From IMG/VR virus record IMGVR_UViG_3300044984_002477, positions 1-34,724 of that record: a stretch of 34,724 nt of DNA, one strand, 5' to 3'. Below are positions 8,761-27,336 of this stretch, piece after piece. Position numbers and translations under genes: made by a program. Source of the DNA: a virus. The notes below the pieces were generated by a model that saw nothing but the letters and a program-made list of their open reading frames with translations, searched no databases and was not told the DNA's origin. Position 1 is the first letter of the stretch. Each line of letters starts with the position of its first letter.

Positions 8761-9279
8761 TTAACCGTCCAAAAATTCTGAAAATTCTAAATCATACAAT
8801 ACACTATCAATATCGTGTACTTCTAATAAGTATAGTATATAACTACTAACACTACTACCTCTACCCACACCCCATACTACATTATGTTGCTTATATGTAT
8901 CGATAATATAAATCATCGTACGTAATAAGTCTAATAGATTTAACGATTTATAAACATTTAGCTCATACTTTACCCGATTAAATCTTTTATAAAACTCATT
9001 ATCAGTACAACCAATGCACATATCTATTAATTTTGTTGTAATATACTTATCCACATCTAATGTTAAATATTGATTAGGTATATTCCAACTTGTATCTAAT
9101 GCACCAATCTTACTCTTAACCGTTATTGGATGCTCTACTAATTTATTATACTGAATTAACTCATCAGTTAAATGATTAACACAAATATTAGGTAAATTAA
9201 TATATTGCATGATATCAGCTGAATCAACTTCATACGACCCATCATACCATAAGATACCATTATTTAATTGTGTTTTCAT
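8761..9279 (-). CDS. DnaE-like (C-family polymerase) palm fragment
   Basis: The protein has 172 residues. Residues about 97-170 follow bacterial DNA polymerase III alpha in order: a helix like YRERLEYELEVI (here YKRFNRVKYELNVYKSL), a second helix before the motif, VWGVGRGSSVSSY (135-147, DnaE: GPGRGS-x-AGS), then HDIDSVLYDLEFSEFL (DnaE: TDIDPLxYxLLFERFL). The protein stops exactly where DnaE continues into its catalytic P-D-x-D-x-D segment, so it lacks two of the catalytic aspartates and cannot be a polymerase alone. Nucleotide or primer-template binding is a guess. T4-like phages replicate with a B-family enzyme. Its ATG overlaps the upstream gene's stop (ATGA). Confidence 0.65.
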   Translation of the reverse strand: MKTQLNNGILWYDGSYEVDSADIMQYINLPNICVNHLTDELIQYNKLVEHPITVKSKIGALDTSWNIPNQYLTLDVDKYITTKLIDMCIGCTDNEFYKRFNRVKYELNVYKSLNLLDLLRTMIYIIDTYKQHNVVWGVGRGSSVSSYILYLLEVHDIDSVLYDLEFSEFLDG

Positions 9280-10108: not shown

Positions 10109-10996
10109 TTATTCTATTTTGTCGTAATTAATTAAACATCTTTGATGCGGGTACCCCGCTGCCTTATAATATGAAACTCTTTTCTTCATGCGCCCATTAG
10201 CTGATGATAAGTTGCTGCATATATCAATAATATTAACATTATCCTTATCAGCACTCTTACGTAATCCCCGACCTATTTGCTGAATAGTATTAATAAATGA
10301 TTTACCTGCATCTATATAAATGAGGTTAAAAATTCTATCGATACTTAATCCAACACCAGCAATTTGCTTTGTACATATTACCACCATATCATTATTTGTT
10401 TCAAATAAATCATAAATGGTTGTTCTAAGATTTACCTTATCTGCCCCATTTAAAACATAAGAATTTGGAATTAATTCATGTAATTCTTTTCCAAACTTAA
10501 TGGTGTTTACTAATATTAACGTATTACTTATGCTACTTTTTTGTTGGGTTTCAATTACAAAATCCGCGATCCACTTCTTTCTATTGAGATTTACTTTAAA
10601 GAAATGCTCTTCTTCTTCATACATAAGATCGTGTGGCTTTGGAACACCATTTGCAAGTAAGTAATTAATATCGTTTAATTGCATTACAGTTATGTTAGGA
10701 ACAGCTAACCACTCTTTAGCAATCAATTCTTTAGCACTTACTGAATGAATTACCGGACCTAATGCAATATGAGTTCTTAATTTCTCAATTGGCTCATCTG
10801 GTAGCGTACCGGTTAATCCGTACCTATGAACTATATTATTACCATAATCGGTTAATAGTTCAAACAGCTTACTAGCTTTAGATCCGTGGCAGTTGGAAAC
10901 AACTACGTTATTAGCGACGTAGTTGTTGTTCTTAGATACGTGCAAGTTATACACGATGTCTGGTCTTTCAATTTCAATTTTTGATTTTATTTTCAT
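10109..10996 (-). CDS. uvsW: UvsW helicase, C-terminal half led by C-intein
   Basis: The protein has 295 residues. Residues 1-35 are a C-intein (VYNLHV, NNYVANNVVVSN). Residue Cys36 resumes the helicase with CHGSKASK, the second half of the DECH box. Further SF2 motifs follow: YGLTGTLPDE (motif III region), then GVGLSIDRI and QQIGRGLRK (motif VI). UvsW in T4 is a 3'-5' helicase that unwinds R-loops and branched recombination intermediates. This half lacks the Walker A and DE residues and can work only after trans-splicing to the product of 11295-13313. A TATAAT lies 7-12 bases before the ATG with no ribosome binding site, suggesting its own nearly leaderless transcript. Confidence 0.88.
   Translation of the reverse strand: MKIKSKIEIERPDIVYNLHVSKNNNYVANNVVVSNCHGSKASKLFELLTDYGNNIVHRYGLTGTLPDEPIEKLRTHIALGPVIHSVSAKELIAKEWLAVPNITVMQLNDINYLLANGVPKPHDLMYEEEEHFFKVNLNRKKWIADFVIETQQKSSISNTLILVNTIKFGKELHELIPNSYVLNGADKVNLRTTIYDLFETNNDMVVICTKQIAGVGLSIDRIFNLIYIDAGKSFINTIQQIGRGLRKSADKDNVNIIDICSNLSSANGRMKKRVSYYKAAGYPHQRCLINYDKIE
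10892..10996 (-). other. C-terminal half of split intein (IntC, 35 residues)
   Basis: MKIKSKIEIERPDIVYNLHV leads into NNYVANNVVVSN, ending at Asn35 with Cys36 as the +1 nucleophile. Length and motif order match natural IntC pieces such as those of cyanobacterial DnaE and gp41-1. The penultimate residue is Ser, not the common His, and block F has Asn (VYNL) where Asp (VYDL) is usual. Confidence 0.85.
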
Positions 10997-11002
10997 TCAT
11001 GT

Positions 11003-11008
11003 ATTATA
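11003..11008 (-). promoter_or_regulatory. Candidate -10 (TATAAT) for the UvsW C-half gene
   Basis: TATAAT on the minus strand sits 7-12 bases before the ATG at 10996. A transcript starting at normal distance would begin at or next to the start codon. Confidence 0.35.
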
Positions 11009-11049
11009 GTATGAATAATATTAGTTATCAACTAATTTAGTACCACATT

Positions 11050-11277
11050 CTACATATATTTTGCAAACTTTACTGCTTCTCTTGGACGTAACGTCTTTTT
11101 GTTGTCTGATATGACGATAAAATCGCCATCAAAAACGTACTGCTTGTTACCATGCTGATCGTAAATAAATGGTACTACGGCTGCTCTATAAAATTTTGAT
11201 GTTCTTGTATCTGATGTATTTACATACCCGTCTTCTAACCCAGGCACGTATCGTACTACACTAAAACTATGATTCAT
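11050..11277 (-). CDS. Small gene inserted between the two uvsW halves
   Basis: The 75-residue protein starts MNHSFSVVRYVPGLEDG and ends RPREAVKFAKYM. An AGGA ribosome binding site precedes the ATG. It is mixed beta in appearance (YVFDGDFIVISD), without the His/Asn/Cys clusters of HNH or the catalytic signatures of GIY-YIG, LAGLIDADG or Vsr-like homing nucleases. It separates the N-intein gene from the C-intein gene, the position often held by a free-standing endonuclease in fractured phage genes. No function is recognised. Confidence 0.6.
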   Translation of the reverse strand: MNHSFSVVRYVPGLEDGYVNTSDTRTSKFYRAAVVPFIYDQHGNKQYVFDGDFIVISDNKKTLRPREAVKFAKYM

Positions 11278-11294
11278 AGATAAATCCTTGAAAT

Positions 11295-13313
11295 TTAATA
11301 ACTAATTATGTCATGTGTTTCATTTAGCATATCCGCTCGTACGTATCCAATATCTGTTAATATCATATGATTACCAGTTACGTCGATAGTTGTATTATCT
11401 TCAAACGTTAATCTATACATTTTTTCGTTCGACGACTTTATCAGATTACGATGTGTTTTAATCACTATATCCGATTCAAATCTATTTTCGTTTACATTAT
11501 ATGATATTATTACTTGCCCAGCTATTATATTTTGAATTTCCTCGTAGTTCCCATTAGCTAATAATACCTTAGTATCACCAGCTAAACATTCATCAACCAC
11601 CACCATTTGAAATATTTTAATAAGGTGAGGGCAATGCTGTAAGGTTTGCCAAGTAGTTACAATATGATCATGATCAATCTCAGGTGACTTTGAGTTGTAA
11701 TGGTGTACATCTAACCCTAATTCCTTAAACTGTTTAATTGTTTGTACAATTAATGATGTAGCTGGCACAATGGTGAGTGTCTTACATCCCTTTTTAGCAT
11801 ATACATCACATATCACTGCGTTGAGAATAGTGTTATGTGTTATAATACAGTCGTCCGTTACATATAAATGATCCGGGTCATCAATCGATATACATCTAGT
11901 TAACTCCGGCTCACATCGCTCAATTGAATACACTCTGCGCATATGTACTCGTTTTTTCTCTTCCTGGTAGCACAAAAATACTTTCTTGGCATCGTGGTCT
12001 ACAAAAAAGAGATCAGGGTATTTATGATAGAAGTTGATTGTTTTTATCGGTCTGTCACCAGTCACTGGTTCATCTACCTCATCAAAATCTTCAGTTAAAT
12101 TTGATGTACTACCTTGTATGATACGACCACCTTGTAAGTGTATCATATCCTTGAGGTCATTGATGATATCAGTATTAATAACAACAAACGTAACAACACC
12201 TTGAATGTATGATAGTGAGCAAGTAGTGCTACACACACCTTGTAAGAAATTTAATCGATCAGCTGCAGTAGTAAAAATATATTCATGTGGAATCCCTTTT
12301 ACTTCTCTAGTTACATATGATAAGTAATCATATAACCGTTGCGAATCATCGTTAGTGGGCTTAATTACTATTTTTAATCCGTAAAGTATTACTCTAAAGC
12401 CTAATAATTCAAGCCAGGGTACCATCGTATTAACAGAGAATCCATTACCGGTTTTATTACGAACATGCACATATAAGTCATAACTTGTAGCCTTTACCAG
12501 TGGTAATAATGATCCTAATACAAACGGATCAATAACATACTCACGTTGTGCAAAATCTATTGGAATTGGAATTACTGGAATAAATGTTTTTTGTTTGGTA
12601 TTGTTTACACGGTGTAATAACTCAGTAGTGCTCTGAATATTAAACGCATCTTTACCATGGCGCAACCAATTACTATTATACGTCTTCCAAAGATGTTCTG
12701 GATTAGCATAAGTAAATCCGCCATCTGACATAGTAACTTTATATACCTCTGTAACACCTTGATTAAAAACACCGTTTATAGTAGCTATAGTGTTTTTAGG
12801 TGTTACTACTTCATCACCTACAGCTAGCTCACCCATAGTGCGCCAACCAGATGGAGTTAAGACCTTGCAATGCAAAGGTTGAGCTTTACCAAACCCGGTA
12901 CCAGCTAATGCAATACCGCTACCAGCAGCCAATAATTTATTAGCTGTTTCTATTTGATGATCTAATAACTCATATGGTTTGTTTGTCTTGTGAAATATCT
13001 TATGACTAAAGTATGTTTCATCAACATCATTAGCTTCATAGAAGGGAAACGTACGATTATCTTGAATATTAACTACATAACCTAAGCGTTTTAATCTACT
13101 AACGATCTCTGGCAATAGATAAAGAAAGGTATCACCATTTTTTTTAAAATATGCAATTTTACCATCCCAAACACCTAACTGGTATTTTGGCATATACTTA
13201 TAATTTGATTCAAATAAATTATACTTGTCAAATAAATCATCTATATGTTGACGCGCCATACCAACAAAAGTGCAGCGCACTTCGTCGTGTATCGTAACTG
13301 TAACATTACTCAT
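11295..13313 (-). CDS. uvsW: UvsW helicase, N-terminal half with cis intein and N-intein
   Basis: The protein has 672 residues in four parts. N-extein: residues 1-143, including LLDHQIETANKLL (Q-motif-like) and AGTGFGK (Walker A). Contiguous intein: 144-494. Middle extein: 495-575 (TILNAV, TIVPATSLIVQT, VTTWQTLQ, MVVVDE). N-intein: 576-672, followed directly by the stop. After cis-splicing the Walker A motif GFGKT is restored; after trans-splicing with the C-half gene, VVVDE joins CHGSKA to give a DECH box, as in T4 UvsW. The ATG overlaps the stop of the upstream gene (ATGA). No frameshift is needed to explain the break, because both edges coincide with intein ends. Confidence 0.9.
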   Translation of the reverse strand: MSNVTVTIHDEVRCTFVGMARQHIDDLFDKYNLFESNYKYMPKYQLGVWDGKIAYFKKNGDTFLYLLPEIVSRLKRLGYVVNIQDNRTFPFYEANDVDETYFSHKIFHKTNKPYELLDHQIETANKLLAAGSGIALAGTGFGKAQPLHCKVLTPSGWRTMGELAVGDEVVTPKNTIATINGVFNQGVTEVYKVTMSDGGFTYANPEHLWKTYNSNWLRHGKDAFNIQSTTELLHRVNNTKQKTFIPVIPIPIDFAQREYVIDPFVLGSLLPLVKATSYDLYVHVRNKTGNGFSVNTMVPWLELLGFRVILYGLKIVIKPTNDDSQRLYDYLSYVTREVKGIPHEYIFTTAADRLNFLQGVCSTTCSLSYIQGVVTFVVINTDIINDLKDMIHLQGGRIIQGSTSNLTEDFDEVDEPVTGDRPIKTINFYHKYPDLFFVDHDAKKVFLCYQEEKKRVHMRRVYSIERCEPELTRCISIDDPDHLYVTDDCIITHNTILNAVICDVYAKKGCKTLTIVPATSLIVQTIKQFKELGLDVHHYNSKSPEIDHDHIVTTWQTLQHCPHLIKIFQMVVVDECLAGDTKVLLANGNYEEIQNIIAGQVIISYNVNENRFESDIVIKTHRNLIKSSNEKMYRLTFEDNTTIDVTGNHMILTDIGYVRADMLNETHDIISY
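11298..11588 (-). other. N-terminal half of split intein (IntN, 97 residues)
   Basis: The segment begins CLAGDTKVLLANG (block A) directly after VVVDE. Its block B is T-G-N-H (residues 646-649 of the host protein, consensus TxxH), and it ends HDIISY-stop. The size matches natural IntN pieces of about 90-105 residues. Its partner IntC starts at 10996. Confidence 0.87.
11832..12884 (-). other. Class 3-type intein in UvsW Walker A, decayed LAGLIDADG
   Basis: The intein has 351 residues, from Ala144 (AQPLHCKVLTPSGW) to Asn494 (ITHN), with Thr495 as +1. The first residue is Ala, not Cys or Ser. Trp209 (PEHLWKT, block B), Cys474 (RCISIDD, block F) and Thr495 match the W-C-T triplet of class 3 inteins, in which the block F Cys is the first nucleophile. 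The central 180 residues resemble a LAGLIDADG endonuclease: FVLGSLLPL at 264-272 and FLQGVCSTTCS at 356-366 fall where LLGLLLGDG and FLQGLMDTDG would be. The catalytic Asp residues are gone, so the nuclease is probably dead. Confidence 0.85.
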
Positions 13314-13777
13314 GAAATTATCCAGTCGTTGCTTTGAGCTACTATTAATCGAGTTAAATTGTTTAATGCGTAACCACGTGTGTGAAAGCTTTCATTAACT
13401 CGTTGAAATTGTTCGTATAATTCACTTATTTTTAGATACGGTTGTATCATTGCTAGGTATTCTGGATCATGTTTAATGTAATGATCTTTATCTTTAACTA
13501 CTAACACTCTATCCATCTTTTCAGTGCATTGCTTCCATAGCCGACCATACACTTCATCAAGTAGAACACTTACGTGTTCTTTTAGATATTTTACTTCAAT
13601 GCTCTGTTGATGATAATAATCAGCCCAACCAGTTTGCTCTGCATTAGCGATATCTATACGTTTACCAGATAAATGCAATACCTTTTCAGCTTCACTTAAA
13701 TCCTCTTTATAAACCGTAATTATTTGATCTAGGTTTTTAATATCTTTTTTAAGTAGTTCGAGGCTATTCATAGTCAT
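13310..13777 (-). CDS. Coiled-coil protein between uvsX and uvsW
   Basis: The protein has 155 residues and is nearly all helical. Heptad-like stretches run through residues 1-75 (SLELLKKDIKNLDQIITV, YLKEHVSVLLDEVYGR) and again at 118-140. It contains no enzymatic motif. It lies between two recombination genes and is coupled to uvsW by ATGA, so a recombination or replication accessory role is plausible. A second in-frame ATG lies at codon 3 and cannot be excluded as the start. Confidence 0.55.
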   Translation of the reverse strand: MTMNSLELLKKDIKNLDQIITVYKEDLSEAEKVLHLSGKRIDIANAEQTGWADYYHQQSIEVKYLKEHVSVLLDEVYGRLWKQCTEKMDRVLVVKDKDHYIKHDPEYLAMIQPYLKISELYEQFQRVNESFHTRGYALNNLTRLIVAQSNDWIIS

Positions 13778-22308: not shown

Positions 22309-23328
22309 ATGTCTGAAGATCTGTATAAAATTCTAGGTGTGTCTCGTGATGCATCACAAGATGAAATTAAAAAACAATATCGTAAGTTGGCGATGAAGCA
22401 TCACCCTGATCGGAACAATGGTAATGCAGAATCGGAAGCTATATTTAAAAAACTAAGCACTGCGTATGATACTTTGTCTGATCCTGCTAAAAGATCAGAG
22501 TATGATAATCCTCAACCAGATTTTAATCCATTTGGTGGCGGTTTTGGTGGATTTAATCCATTTGATCATCCAGCGCATCAGCAAGCTCATGAAAATTTAG
22601 ACTTGTTATATGGTATTGATATTACGCTAGAAGAAGCTTACCATGGCACTACTAGAGAAGTTAAGTATAATAAGCGTATTAAGTGCTCTACATGTAATGG
22701 TCAGGGTACTTCTAAACCAAATGAAACTGTTAGATGTAGTTTATGTAAAGGTAGTGGTGTGCATGTAGTTCAAAACGGACCATTTATGCAGCAGAGCATC
22801 TGCCAGCCATGTAAAGGTAGTGGTAAAATTATTCAACATCCATGTGGTAGCTGTGATGGTGAAGGAACTGTTGTTGATAGAGTAACTATCGATATTAATA
22901 TACCAAAAGGATTATCAGGTAATCGATTACAAATACACCACGGTGGACATTGTGGTAAAAACCATACCGGTAATCTGTATATTGATGTTACGATATTACC
23001 GCATCCAAGATTTGATAGAAAAGGTCCGGTTGATCTTGTTTGTCAGATTGACTGCACATACGATACGTTATGCTTAGGTGGAACTGTTCAAGTATCTACC
23101 ATTGATGGTGATATTAACGTTAAAATTGCAGCTGGCACACAAACTGGTAGTGTTGTACGTGTTGCTAAAAAAGGTATGCGTGTAGGTCAGATGACCGGTA
23201 ACTTGTTATGTGTAGTTAGATGTATTATTCCAGCCAATTTAACTGATAAGCAAAAAGAACTAATTCAAGAGCTCGCTAACAGCTTTGAAACTATCGAACT
23301 AAATAGCGAACCAACTACTGCGGAGTAA
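22309..23328 (+). CDS. dnaJ: DnaJ (Hsp40) co-chaperone
   Basis: The protein has 339 residues, shorter than bacterial DnaJ (about 375). It has a J domain at 4-65 with the HPD motif (KHHPDR), then a Gly/Phe-rich linker (NPFGGGFGGFNPFD). Four zinc-finger repeats follow (CSTCNGQG, CSLCKGSG, CQPCKGSG, CGSCDGEG), then the C-terminal substrate-binding domain (NIPKGLSGN, LPHPRFDRKG). All parts needed to stimulate host DnaK are intact. The gene leads the plus-strand cluster with the gp26-like and portal genes, suggesting use in virion protein folding. A complete DnaJ is unusual in a phage, and a GroES-like gene is also present. Confidence 0.95.
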   Translation: MSEDLYKILGVSRDASQDEIKKQYRKLAMKHHPDRNNGNAESEAIFKKLSTAYDTLSDPAKRSEYDNPQPDFNPFGGGFGGFNPFDHPAHQQAHENLDLLYGIDITLEEAYHGTTREVKYNKRIKCSTCNGQGTSKPNETVRCSLCKGSGVHVVQNGPFMQQSICQPCKGSGKIIQHPCGSCDGEGTVVDRVTIDINIPKGLSGNRLQIHHGGHCGKNHTGNLYIDVTILPHPRFDRKGPVDLVCQIDCTYDTLCLGGTVQVSTIDGDINVKIAAGTQTGSVVRVAKKGMRVGQMTGNLLCVVRCIIPANLTDKQKELIQELANSFETIELNSEPTTAE

Positions 23329-24351: not shown

Positions 24352-27336
24352 ATGGGCAAATTTACCGATTTTTACCGTATCGTTTCACCAGCACAGCCAT
24401 CTGTAACGGTAAACGATAACCAAATAATGGATCATGGATATGCATCCACGTCTAACTTTAATTGGTATCAAAAAATTATTCAAGGTAGCTCATCTAGAGT
24501 TTCTCGATATAATGAGTATAATATCATGGATCAAGATGTTGAGATCGCAAGAGCTCTCGATATCGTTGCTGAAGAAATGACACCGAGAAATAATAAGAAT
24601 AATATGCCTCTTGAAATTGATCTTCAGGTTGAAGAAGGTCACGAATCAGATGATACATTAGTTCTTACTATTAGAGCAGCATTACGCCATTGGTGCTCTT
24701 TACATGGCTTTGATAATAATAGATTATTTAAACTATCACGTAATATGGTCAAATACGGTGATTGTTTCTTTAGAAAAACATCTAATTATAAGCAATGGGA
24801 ATGGATTCCAGCTAGTGATATCGCAGGTGCGGTAGTTGATGCTAACGATGTTACTCGCATATTAGGATACCAGGTACGTACAAATTCTAAAACACCAAAC
24901 GCACCTAATATGGCAACATCTAGTTATCGTAGCATATCTAGCAAAGATGAATATGAGATTATTGATGCTGATAAAATGGTTGTGTTCTCTATCAATGATG
25001 ATATGTCTGATAGTGCTCCATTTGGTGAATCAATTTTACGTACTGTATATAAAACTCATAAACAAAAAGAATTATTGGAAGATGCGATTATTATCTATCG
25101 TATTCAACGTGCTCCAGAACGCAGAGTGTTTTATATTGATGTAGGTAAAATGCCGCCTAATAGAATTAAAACATACCTGGAAACTATAAAAAATGAAATG
25201 CGACAAAAACGGATTCCTAGCCAGAGTCCAAATGGTACCAATGCGGTGGATGCGGTGTACAATCCACAATGTTTGGCGTTGGATACTCTTATTCCCCTTA
25301 TGGATGGTAGAACGCTTTCATTATCAGATATTATTGCTGAGATTGATAACGGCAATGAATTGTGGGCCTACTCAGTAGATCCTGAAACTAATACATGCCA
25401 CCCAGGTATTATTTCTTGGGCTGGTGTTACTCGTGTTAATACAAATGTTATTAAGGTTACTCTAAGTAATGGTAACGAAATAATTTGTACACCTGATCAT
25501 AGCGTTCCTGTTAGAGGTGGAGGGTTTGTACCTGCAATATTGTTAACTCCTGATGATGAGTTATTTGAGACATGCACTACTGAAACCGATCTTACTACTG
25601 CACATGCTCAATTTGAACGATATAACCATTGGGATGAATACACCAAAGATTTAACACCAGGTACTATATCAATCGTTAATATTGAAACTGTTACAGAGTT
25701 AATGGATGTAGGTACGCTTACTATCGATCAACACGACTATTACCACGCACATCATACGTTTGCAACAGCATGCGGGTTATTCGTTAAAAATAGCCAGATG
25801 GAAGACATATTCTTGGCTCAAAGAGCAGATGGTGCGGGTTCAAAAGTAGACGTGCTTCAAGGTGGTTGCTTAGACTTAGATACCAAAATTGATTTAATAG
25901 ATAACGAATCTAAAACTCTTAGAGATCTAATTACTGATTACGAAAATGGTATTGAAAATATCACTATTAGTTGCTGCCCATGTAGCGGTAAATTACTACC
26001 CGGTAAAATATCTTGGGCAGGCATTACACATGAAAGCACAGGGGTAGTTGAATTAGTACTAGATAATAATAACAAAATTATTTGTACGCCAGATCACAGG
26101 TTCCCAGTTTGGGGCAAAGGTTTCATACAAGCGTCTGATCTAGCAGATAACGATATTATTATAGGTTATACATCTACTGATACAACTGTTTATTATCATC
26201 CAGAAAAACGCTACATTAAAAGCAAATATTTAATGGACTTACAGAAGCATCATATTAGCGCTTCACAGTTCTATAACGGAACAGTTCATAAGTTAATTCA
26301 AATCATTACTAATGCGTATCAAAATACAGGCTCCGTAAATTTAATACCTGCATGGATACACAATAATGATGCAGCGACGTTTACAACGTTATGTGCTAAC
26401 CTATTACATGAGTCACCTGATGATATTAACGATGATACTTTGCAATTAGTTGCGCAAAATATCGGTTATTCTAATCTTAATCATCTTGTTTCTGATATTC
26501 CTAGATATGGACATAAAGTTGTTTCGTACACCGTTCTAGATGAATTCCGCACTGTTGGTACATTAACTATCGATCAAGAAGAAAAAGATCATGATTTTCA
26601 TACATTTAGCTTAAGTTGTGGTGTATTTACAAAGAATTCACAACTAGGTGAGCAGAACGATCTTGATTATTTCGCTGATAAAGTATTAAGAGGTTTACGA
26701 GTTCCAATTGCATGGATGAAGCCTGGTACAAATAACGCGATATTCAATGATGGTAAGGTCGGTGCAGCTTATATAGAAGAGCAGCAATTTGCTAAATTTG
26801 TTGAGCGTTTGCAAACTTATATAGCTGATACATTAGACGAAGAGTTTAAAACATATTTGTTCCAAAGCAATATTCATGTTGATAACTCATTATTTAAAAT
26901 TAAGTTACCACCTCCATCTAACTATCAAAAATATCAGCAAGCTGAAATGGATAGTGCGTTATTGAATACTATTAGTTCAGCTGACGGGTTACAGTACTTA
27001 TCTAAACGATTCATTTTATCACGATACTTGCAGTTATCTGAAGATGAAATCTTGACTAACGAACAGCTAATCAAGCAAGAAAAAGGCTTAGTACTTAATG
27101 CTGATAAGAACCTTACATCTGTATACGGCGTTCCAAGTGAAGGTGGTATGGGAATGGGCGGTGGTATGGATATGGGCATGGGTGGTGGTATGGATATGGG
27201 CGCTGGTGCTGATATTGGTGGGCCAGGTGATGATACCATTAATATGGGTGGTGCTGGAGCAGCTGGCGCGGGAGATGCTGGTGCGACGGGTGGTGCACTA
27301 CCACCAACTGGAGGAGCATTACCTCCAACTCAATAA
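24352..27336 (+). CDS. 20: Portal vertex protein (gp20) with two inteins
   Basis: The ORF has 994 codons; removing the inteins at 307-480 and 506-762 leaves a 563-residue portal, close to T4 gp20 (524). Extein signatures include SRYNEYNIMDQDVEIARALD near 52, FGESILRTVYKTHKQKELLEDA near 224, YRIQRAPERRVFYIDVGKMP near 249, VYNPQ joined to SQMEDIFLAQRADGAGS, and VLQGG joined to SQLGEQNDLDYF, followed by LRVPIAWM. gp20 forms the dodecameric DNA gate at the head vertex and nucleates prohead assembly. The C-terminus adds a Gly/Met/Ala-rich tail (GGMGMGGGMDMG) absent from T4. Both splicing events are required for an active portal. Confidence 0.92.
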   Translation: MGKFTDFYRIVSPAQPSVTVNDNQIMDHGYASTSNFNWYQKIIQGSSSRVSRYNEYNIMDQDVEIARALDIVAEEMTPRNNKNNMPLEIDLQVEEGHESDDTLVLTIRAALRHWCSLHGFDNNRLFKLSRNMVKYGDCFFRKTSNYKQWEWIPASDIAGAVVDANDVTRILGYQVRTNSKTPNAPNMATSSYRSISSKDEYEIIDADKMVVFSINDDMSDSAPFGESILRTVYKTHKQKELLEDAIIIYRIQRAPERRVFYIDVGKMPPNRIKTYLETIKNEMRQKRIPSQSPNGTNAVDAVYNPQCLALDTLIPLMDGRTLSLSDIIAEIDNGNELWAYSVDPETNTCHPGIISWAGVTRVNTNVIKVTLSNGNEIICTPDHSVPVRGGGFVPAILLTPDDELFETCTTETDLTTAHAQFERYNHWDEYTKDLTPGTISIVNIETVTELMDVGTLTIDQHDYYHAHHTFATACGLFVKNSQMEDIFLAQRADGAGSKVDVLQGGCLDLDTKIDLIDNESKTLRDLITDYENGIENITISCCPCSGKLLPGKISWAGITHESTGVVELVLDNNNKIICTPDHRFPVWGKGFIQASDLADNDIIIGYTSTDTTVYYHPEKRYIKSKYLMDLQKHHISASQFYNGTVHKLIQIITNAYQNTGSVNLIPAWIHNNDAATFTTLCANLLHESPDDINDDTLQLVAQNIGYSNLNHLVSDIPRYGHKVVSYTVLDEFRTVGTLTIDQEEKDHDFHTFSLSCGVFTKNSQLGEQNDLDYFADKVLRGLRVPIAWMKPGTNNAIFNDGKVGAAYIEEQQFAKFVERLQTYIADTLDEEFKTYLFQSNIHVDNSLFKIKLPPPSNYQKYQQAEMDSALLNTISSADGLQYLSKRFILSRYLQLSEDEILTNEQLIKQEKGLVLNADKNLTSVYGVPSEGGMGMGGGMDMGMGGGMDMGAGADIGGPGDDTINMGGAGAAGAGDAGATGGALPPTGGALPPTQ
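25270..25791 (+). other. Portal intein 1 (mini-intein, 174 residues)
   Basis: It begins CLALDTLIPLMDG after YNPQ, has TPDH in block B (residues 380-383) and TLTIDQHDYYHAHHTF in block F, and ends GLFVKN before Ser481. The size leaves no room for a homing endonuclease. The penultimate residue is Lys where His is usual. Confidence 0.9.
25867..26637 (+). other. Portal intein 2 (257 residues), paralogue of intein 1
   Basis: It begins CLDLDTKIDLIDN after VLQGG, has TPDH in block B (579-582) and TLTIDQEEKDHDFHTF in block F, and ends GVFTKN before Ser763. It shares KISWAGIT, KIICTPDH and the VGTLTIDQ end with intein 1. It contains about 85 extra residues (roughly 615-705) without visible LAGLIDADG, HNH or GIY-YIG motifs, possibly a nuclease remnant. 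The penultimate residue is again Lys. Confidence 0.9.

Follow-up and report, generated by a model that had tools for sequence, protein, structure and literature searches.

A T4-type uvsW gene fractured at its DECH box by a split intein in an IMG/VR virus record, with a second intein in the Walker A loop

Fractured genes such as gp41-1, NrdJ-1 and IMPDH-1 are genes of conserved phage DNA-metabolism enzymes broken by a split intein, and in the canonical arrangement a free-standing homing endonuclease gene lies between the halves. The founding paper of 2009, by Dassa et al., is said to cover eight enzyme types. In cyanobacteria the halves of the split DnaE intein (Npu, Ssp) are also encoded by separate genes, which lie far apart in the chromosome and have no endonuclease. 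Class 3 inteins have no nucleophile at position 1 and are recognized by a WCT triplet, i.e. Trp in block B, Cys at F:4 and Thr at G:5 (PMC6195587, PMC4031507); mycobacterial DnaBi1, in the Walker A loop, is one of them (PMC6195587). The locus described here is a fractured uvsW helicase gene in the IMG/VR virus record IMGVR_UViG_3300044984_002477, and it shares features with each of these systems. The window analysed is this entire record, 34,724 bases long, classed as linear and probably a fragment. In all likelihood the uvsW gene owes the break in its Walker B/DECH box to a split intein of class 1 and its halves are trans-spliced, a class 3 intein in the Walker A loop is cis-spliced, and a UvsW of 484 amino acids (aa) results.

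The features of the locus are listed below, with open reading frames (ORFs) given as they are read and a slash marking a splice junction.

10109-13313, minus strand: whole fractured uvsW locus
13313-11295, minus strand: N-half ORF, 672 aa, ending ...FQMVVVDE/CLAGDTKVLL...HDIISY and a stop codon
12885-13313, minus strand: uvsW extein N1, 143 aa, the N-terminal domain up to the Walker A GTGFGK; UvsW_N match at 27-83, sub-threshold
11832-12884, minus strand: intein 1, contiguous, 351 aa, class 3 type, at GFGK/T; Ala1, W209, C474, T492-H493-N494, Thr+1; LAGLIDADG motifs lost
11589-11831, minus strand: uvsW extein N2, 81 aa, from the Walker A Thr to ...VVVDE of the Walker B box; ResIII match at 495-596
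11298-11588, minus strand: N-intein, 97 aa, with Cys1 and TGNH in block B; stop codon at 11295-11297
11050-11277, minus strand: ORF75, 75 aa, between the halves, of no known family, with homologs found only between UvsW halves
10996-10109, minus strand: C-half ORF, 295 aa, a C-intein ending VVVSN and then CHGSKA
10892-10996, minus strand: C-intein, 35 aa, ending VVVSN; penultimate Ser, F:13 Asn
10112-10891, minus strand: uvsW extein C, 260 aa, beginning C+1 HGSKA; second RecA domain, 2OCA match at E 3e-12; stop codon at 10109-10111

Most of this layout agrees with the initial annotation of the DNA, which had described an N-half ending in a 97-residue N-intein directly after VVVDE, a C-half starting with a 35-residue C-intein that ends in VVVSN before CHGSKA, and a separate gene within about 300 bases between the halves (298 bases, holding one 75-aa ORF). 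It had also proposed that the joined exteins give VVVDECHGSKA, the Walker B box. The junction is as proposed, but intein 1 was overlooked, and its 351 aa would remain in the product unless they were also removed. With both inteins subtracted, the exteins (143 + 81 + 260 aa) add up to 484 aa, close to the 505 aa of an intact uvsW with an empty site (locus L018).

Sequence comparison and structure modelling both support the assignment of the host gene to T4-type uvsW, as first suggested. T4 UvsW (2OCA) heads both the Protein Data Bank sequence matches of the C-half (E 3e-12) and the fold matches of the C-half structure model. PHROG helicase families match both halves, phrog_16 in each; two further families, phrog_16259 and phrog_9690, span helicase plus intein fragment, so that UvsW halves are already present in PHROGs as ‘DNA helicase’. 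The similarity to T4 UvsW covers both RecA domains and includes the DECH box, and the UvsW_N match in the N-half scores 21.8 bits, under the Pfam cut-off of 25.3. The extein junctions match intact UvsW exactly, with the break after DE of the DECH box. Elsewhere the window carries UvsX-like (RecA), gp32-like and gp20-like genes, which would suit a T4-like phage.

The Pfam Intein_splicing profile (155 positions) matches with positions 1-89 in the N-half and 122-155 in the C-half. The two matches are complementary, and both score under the curated cut-off, as expected for fragments. The splicing domain is divided between two ORFs, with the break falling between blocks B and F, and all class 1 residues are present (C576, TGNH, N35, C36). 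The split position, roughly 100 + 36 aa, is that of the cyanobacterial DnaE intein, and the N-half structure model matches Npu DnaE structures. The UvsW intein differs from split DnaE in host protein and insertion site, and the UvsW halves lie only 0.3-1.4 kb apart.

The proposed split intein at DE/CH is borne out by its recurrence. Database scans, with loci classified by profiles of extein and intein pieces and counted as distinct at 95% N-intein identity, yielded 105 distinct UvsW loci that carry an intein at DE/C: 92 split, 4 contiguous and 9 without a visible C-half, most of the latter at contig ends. It should be noted that, because split-intein sequences served as seeds, contiguous and empty forms are under-represented in these counts, which are not frequencies. 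Cys1 and the DE/C junction are found in all 105 loci, and Asn followed by Cys+1 in all 96 with a visible C-half. Block B reads TxxH in 101 by the strict pattern; three more read TGNH or TANH, and one SxxH. A first scan gave eight loci of the window's layout at 62-66% identity (L002-L005 are identical over the compared region). In the phage record collection searched, no close relative covers 80% of the N-half. Independent contigs (L002, L006-L009, L024, L026, L028 and L031) share this anatomy, and its recurrence at 45-66% identity rules out chance or misassembly as its source.

Both split-intein pieces are under purifying selection. Among four close relatives the ratio of nonsynonymous to synonymous substitution (dN/dS) is 0.13 for the N-intein, 0.19 for the C-intein, 0.10 for intein 1, 0.04-0.14 for the exteins and 0.21 for ORF75; these values are pairwise sums and not independent, and the C-intein has few sites. 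Trans-splicing of the halves into an intact UvsW is the best explanation and very likely, because the catalytic residues are conserved, dN/dS is low, and each of 12 records of relatives (50-180 kb; those from IMG/VR may be fragments) yielded only one UvsW match.

The N-half and C-half proteins would be separate products. The 97-aa N-intein and the 35-aa C-intein would then bind each other and fold into one HINT domain, and trans-splicing would join VVVDE to CHGSKA. The class 3 intein would excise itself in cis from the Walker A loop (GFGK/T). Both ATP motifs would be complete only after both splicing events, in the 484-aa UvsW. What the sequences show directly is the anatomy, the junction match, the retained catalytic residues, the purifying selection on the intein pieces and the repeated use of this one site; splicing itself, like the history proposed below, is deduced.

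Several points weigh against splicing of the window's copy. It lacks His at the penultimate position (Ser) and at F:13 (Asn), and His at these positions often assists splicing (PMC4031507), although a penultimate His is common rather than obligatory. This concern is softened by the family as a whole: the penultimate residue is Ser in 79 of 96 C-halves and His in 4, and F:13 varies widely, with Asn in 17 of the 96. Confidence in the N-half structure model is low (predicted template modelling score, pTM, 0.46). The C-intein alone is predicted to be disordered (predicted local distance difference test, pLDDT, 33-38), a result that is uninformative for an isolated fragment.

The two deviating positions in the C-intein would also suit a different arrangement, in which two non-covalently assembled chains make up the helicase and the intein pieces persist without function. 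Two-chain enzymes from phage genes split by endonucleases are known, e.g. the split nrdA of a T4-like phage (PMC2988022). Here, however, the break falls between E and C of DECH, and such an enzyme would have its ATPase site burdened with 97 + 35 extra residues. Moreover, the intein catalytic residues are kept across the 105 distinct loci, with both pieces under purifying selection, and a two-chain UvsW is very unlikely. Less probable still is that the two genes are decaying as a pseudogene in a phage that relies on a different helicase. Since the window is a fragment, a gene for one could lie elsewhere in the genome, but every frame is open, dN/dS lies far below 1, and the relatives' contigs of up to 180 kb have no second UvsW match. 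Joining at the RNA level by an intron, trans-splicing or ribosome bypass is the least probable of the three: introns are common in T4-like phages, but in the whole window nothing matches Rfam above threshold, so that an RNA intron in the gap was rejected, the gap lies inside a recognizable intein with a stop codon in the N-half and a start codon in the C-half, and other members, with gaps of -20 to 144 bases, have no room for an intron.

Intein 1, the cis-spliced element in this scheme, occupies residues 144-494 of the N-half, with the borders AGTGFGK/AQPLHCK...IITHN/TILNA. It is similar to the class 3 inteins of mycobacterial DnaB and to gp41-1, and its structure matches are 6bs8 and 6rix. 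The class 3 residues are present in the window (A144, W209, C474, T492). Trp209, Cys474 and Thr492-His493-Asn494 are invariant across nine relatives; position 1 is Ala throughout (A144 in the window) save in L031, which has Ser. Intein 1 thus shares with mycobacterial DnaBi1 (PMC6195587) the Walker A loop, Ala1 and the WCT triplet, and differs from it in its host, UvsW, and in that the LAGLIDADG domain is retained with its motifs lost. Both motifs are gone in every UvsW copy examined, which read e.g. GSILPFVE and LQGMCDVGG at these positions (PLVK and CSTTC in the window), and intein 1 does not qualify as an actively homing element. Its relatives in other P-loop genes retain them, as LLGVLLGDG and LLRGLMDTDG.

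The gap between the halves sets the window apart from the canonical arrangement. An endonuclease is present in 75 of the 92 split loci: it is free-standing and of EDxHD type in 72, among them the cultured phages S16 and PM2, fused in frame in 2, and of HNH type in 1. In L036 and L211 it is fused to the N-intein and overlaps the C-half ORF; in L031 the HNH endonuclease lies between the halves. The EDxHD label has three sources, namely phrog_15427 (‘endonuclease’), a Pfam match of TnsA-like type, and the motif of residues itself; among solved structures no convincing match to the fold was found. No endonuclease is recognized in the other 17 split loci. Eleven of these (L042 and ten others) have gaps of 144 bases or less, and the other six (L002, L006, L007, L008, L024, L026) form with the window locus a clade with other small ORFs in the gap. 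This is the only clade seen in which the halves are separated by non-endonuclease genes. In the window the gap holds no endonuclease, its sole ORF being the 75-aa one without a family match.

The label of fractured gene, given initially, therefore holds in part: an enzyme gene is broken by a split intein, as in gp41-1, NrdJ-1 and IMPDH-1, here in the host UvsW at DE/CH, but the endonuclease, a defining feature that most same-site UvsW relatives share, is replaced in the window's clade by a 75-aa orphan gene and small ORFs. Because its gap is without an endonuclease, the window locus is a derived variant of the fractured gene.

The UvsW DE/CH site displays a near-complete natural series of stages by which a gene becomes permanently split: contiguous intein, fused endonuclease, free-standing endonuclease, endonuclease lost, and other genes in the gap. 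The origin of split genes is therefore testable by comparison. A contiguous intein at DE/C is read in L124, L141, L156 and L232, and a further one, 316 aa long, in L051 (810 aa). Shortened gaps are found in L114, L150 and L130, and in L218 the endonuclease match is spread over two ORFs. In the most economical history, an endonuclease-carrying intein would have invaded the site and its endonuclease ORF would have split the gene into halves. The window's clade would later have lost the endonuclease, and other small genes would then have occupied the gap.

The 11 contigs in which the ORF75 family is found all belong, by their fractured UvsW, to the window's clade, and in each of them the gene lies between the halves. 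No homolog was found in six records with intact UvsW or of L031 type that were searched whole, and neither Pfam nor PHROGs gives a lead to its name. Further small ORFs accompany the 75-aa gene in the gaps of L002, L006 and others. ORF75 is under purifying selection. It is most likely a lineage-specific small phage gene that has come to lie in the gap. Since it is found only between fractured-UvsW halves and is under purifying selection, it might instead be a factor dedicated to the locus, e.g. one that aids the meeting of the halves or times trans-splicing, with the two ATP-site inteins acting as a double lock on helicase activation, but this is improbable. A relic of the endonuclease was considered and rejected (hhalign probability 2.5% against the EDxHD set).

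Just before the C-half is a promoter-like site (11031-11003, minus strand) that agrees with the sigma-70-like pattern at 11 of 12 positions. It reads TTGATA-17-TATAAT, and a site with the same hexamers and spacing lies at 13813-13785 (minus strand), before the ORF at 13310-13777. A promoter in the gap was rejected, as sigma-70-like sites in the region are at chance level (26 against 24.4).

The intein and helicase trees disagree in the placement of L031. In the extein tree it is sister to the window's clade (99/99); in the intein tree it groups with L042, L046, L053 and L064 (99/96), and the window's clade with L036 and the cultured phages S16 and PM2. Placing L031 with the window's clade in the intein tree is rejected by the approximately unbiased test (p = 0.005, on a short alignment of 134 columns). 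In addition, L036 and the window are 46% identical in the N-intein and only 27% in the exteins. This conflict and the closer N-intein of L036 make it probable that the element has moved between hosts at the DE/C site, one split-intein cassette being exchanged for or replaced by another.

The suggestion that no UvsW example had been described is not contradicted in the literature searched, which did not include the 2009 founding paper and contains no mention of split inteins together with UvsW. Deposited genomes nevertheless carry one. An N-half ending in a homologous N-intein is found in Salmonella phages S16, STP4-a, SEA1, CF-SP2 and others and in Proteus phage PM2, and the complete split can be read in S16 (gp114, gp114.1, gp115) and PM2 (HQ331142, MF001355), whose records show two helicase genes around a gene annotated as hypothetical. 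As in the window, uvsW of S16 and PM2 is split at DE/CH by a homologous split intein (N-intein 46-48% identical); unlike the window, these phages have an EDxHD-type endonuclease between the halves, a penultimate His and no detected intein at Walker A. Since the cultured Salmonella phages of the S16 group share the split site, the mechanism is open to laboratory testing. The site also supplies about 90 split inteins, mostly with penultimate Ser rather than His, for which no characterisation was found in the literature searched and which may be of use in protein engineering.

The ‘hypothetical’ genes, S16 gp114.1 (L098:3791-4666) and its PM2 counterpart (L099:3794-4669), have the look of an EDxHD/Vsr-type homing endonuclease. 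PM2 has a further HNH-like gene after the C-half. In S16 the homing endonuclease gene gp113 is located between inh and uvsW, the position of segE in T4 (PMC2988022).

In L053 (6336-7127) the UvsW C-half is cut short and followed by an in-frame intein-like sequence (YTILNFGDYTIDVRSDFKILLSNGEWK), with the helicase remainder further downstream; this is possibly another, broken intein. The C-half exteins of L006 and L007 are identical over 260 codons and neighbouring parts differ at 10-48% of synonymous sites, which reflects either recent recombination or chimeric assembly. L173 has a fractured N-half and no C-half was found in about 3.5 kb downstream; its C-half may be elsewhere.

Elsewhere in the window, the ORF of a T4-type portal protein (gp20; 24352-27336, plus strand, 994 aa) matches Pfam Portal_T4 and Intein_splicing and appears to carry two inteins (CLALDTLIPL...GLFVKN/S and CLDLDTKIDL...GVFTKN/S). 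A 172-aa ORF (8761-9279, minus strand) matches the NTPase domain of DNA polymerase III alpha (PF07733) and is far too short for a polymerase. A full DnaJ-like co-chaperone, with a J domain, CXXCXGXG and the C-terminal domain, is encoded at 22309-23328 (plus strand).

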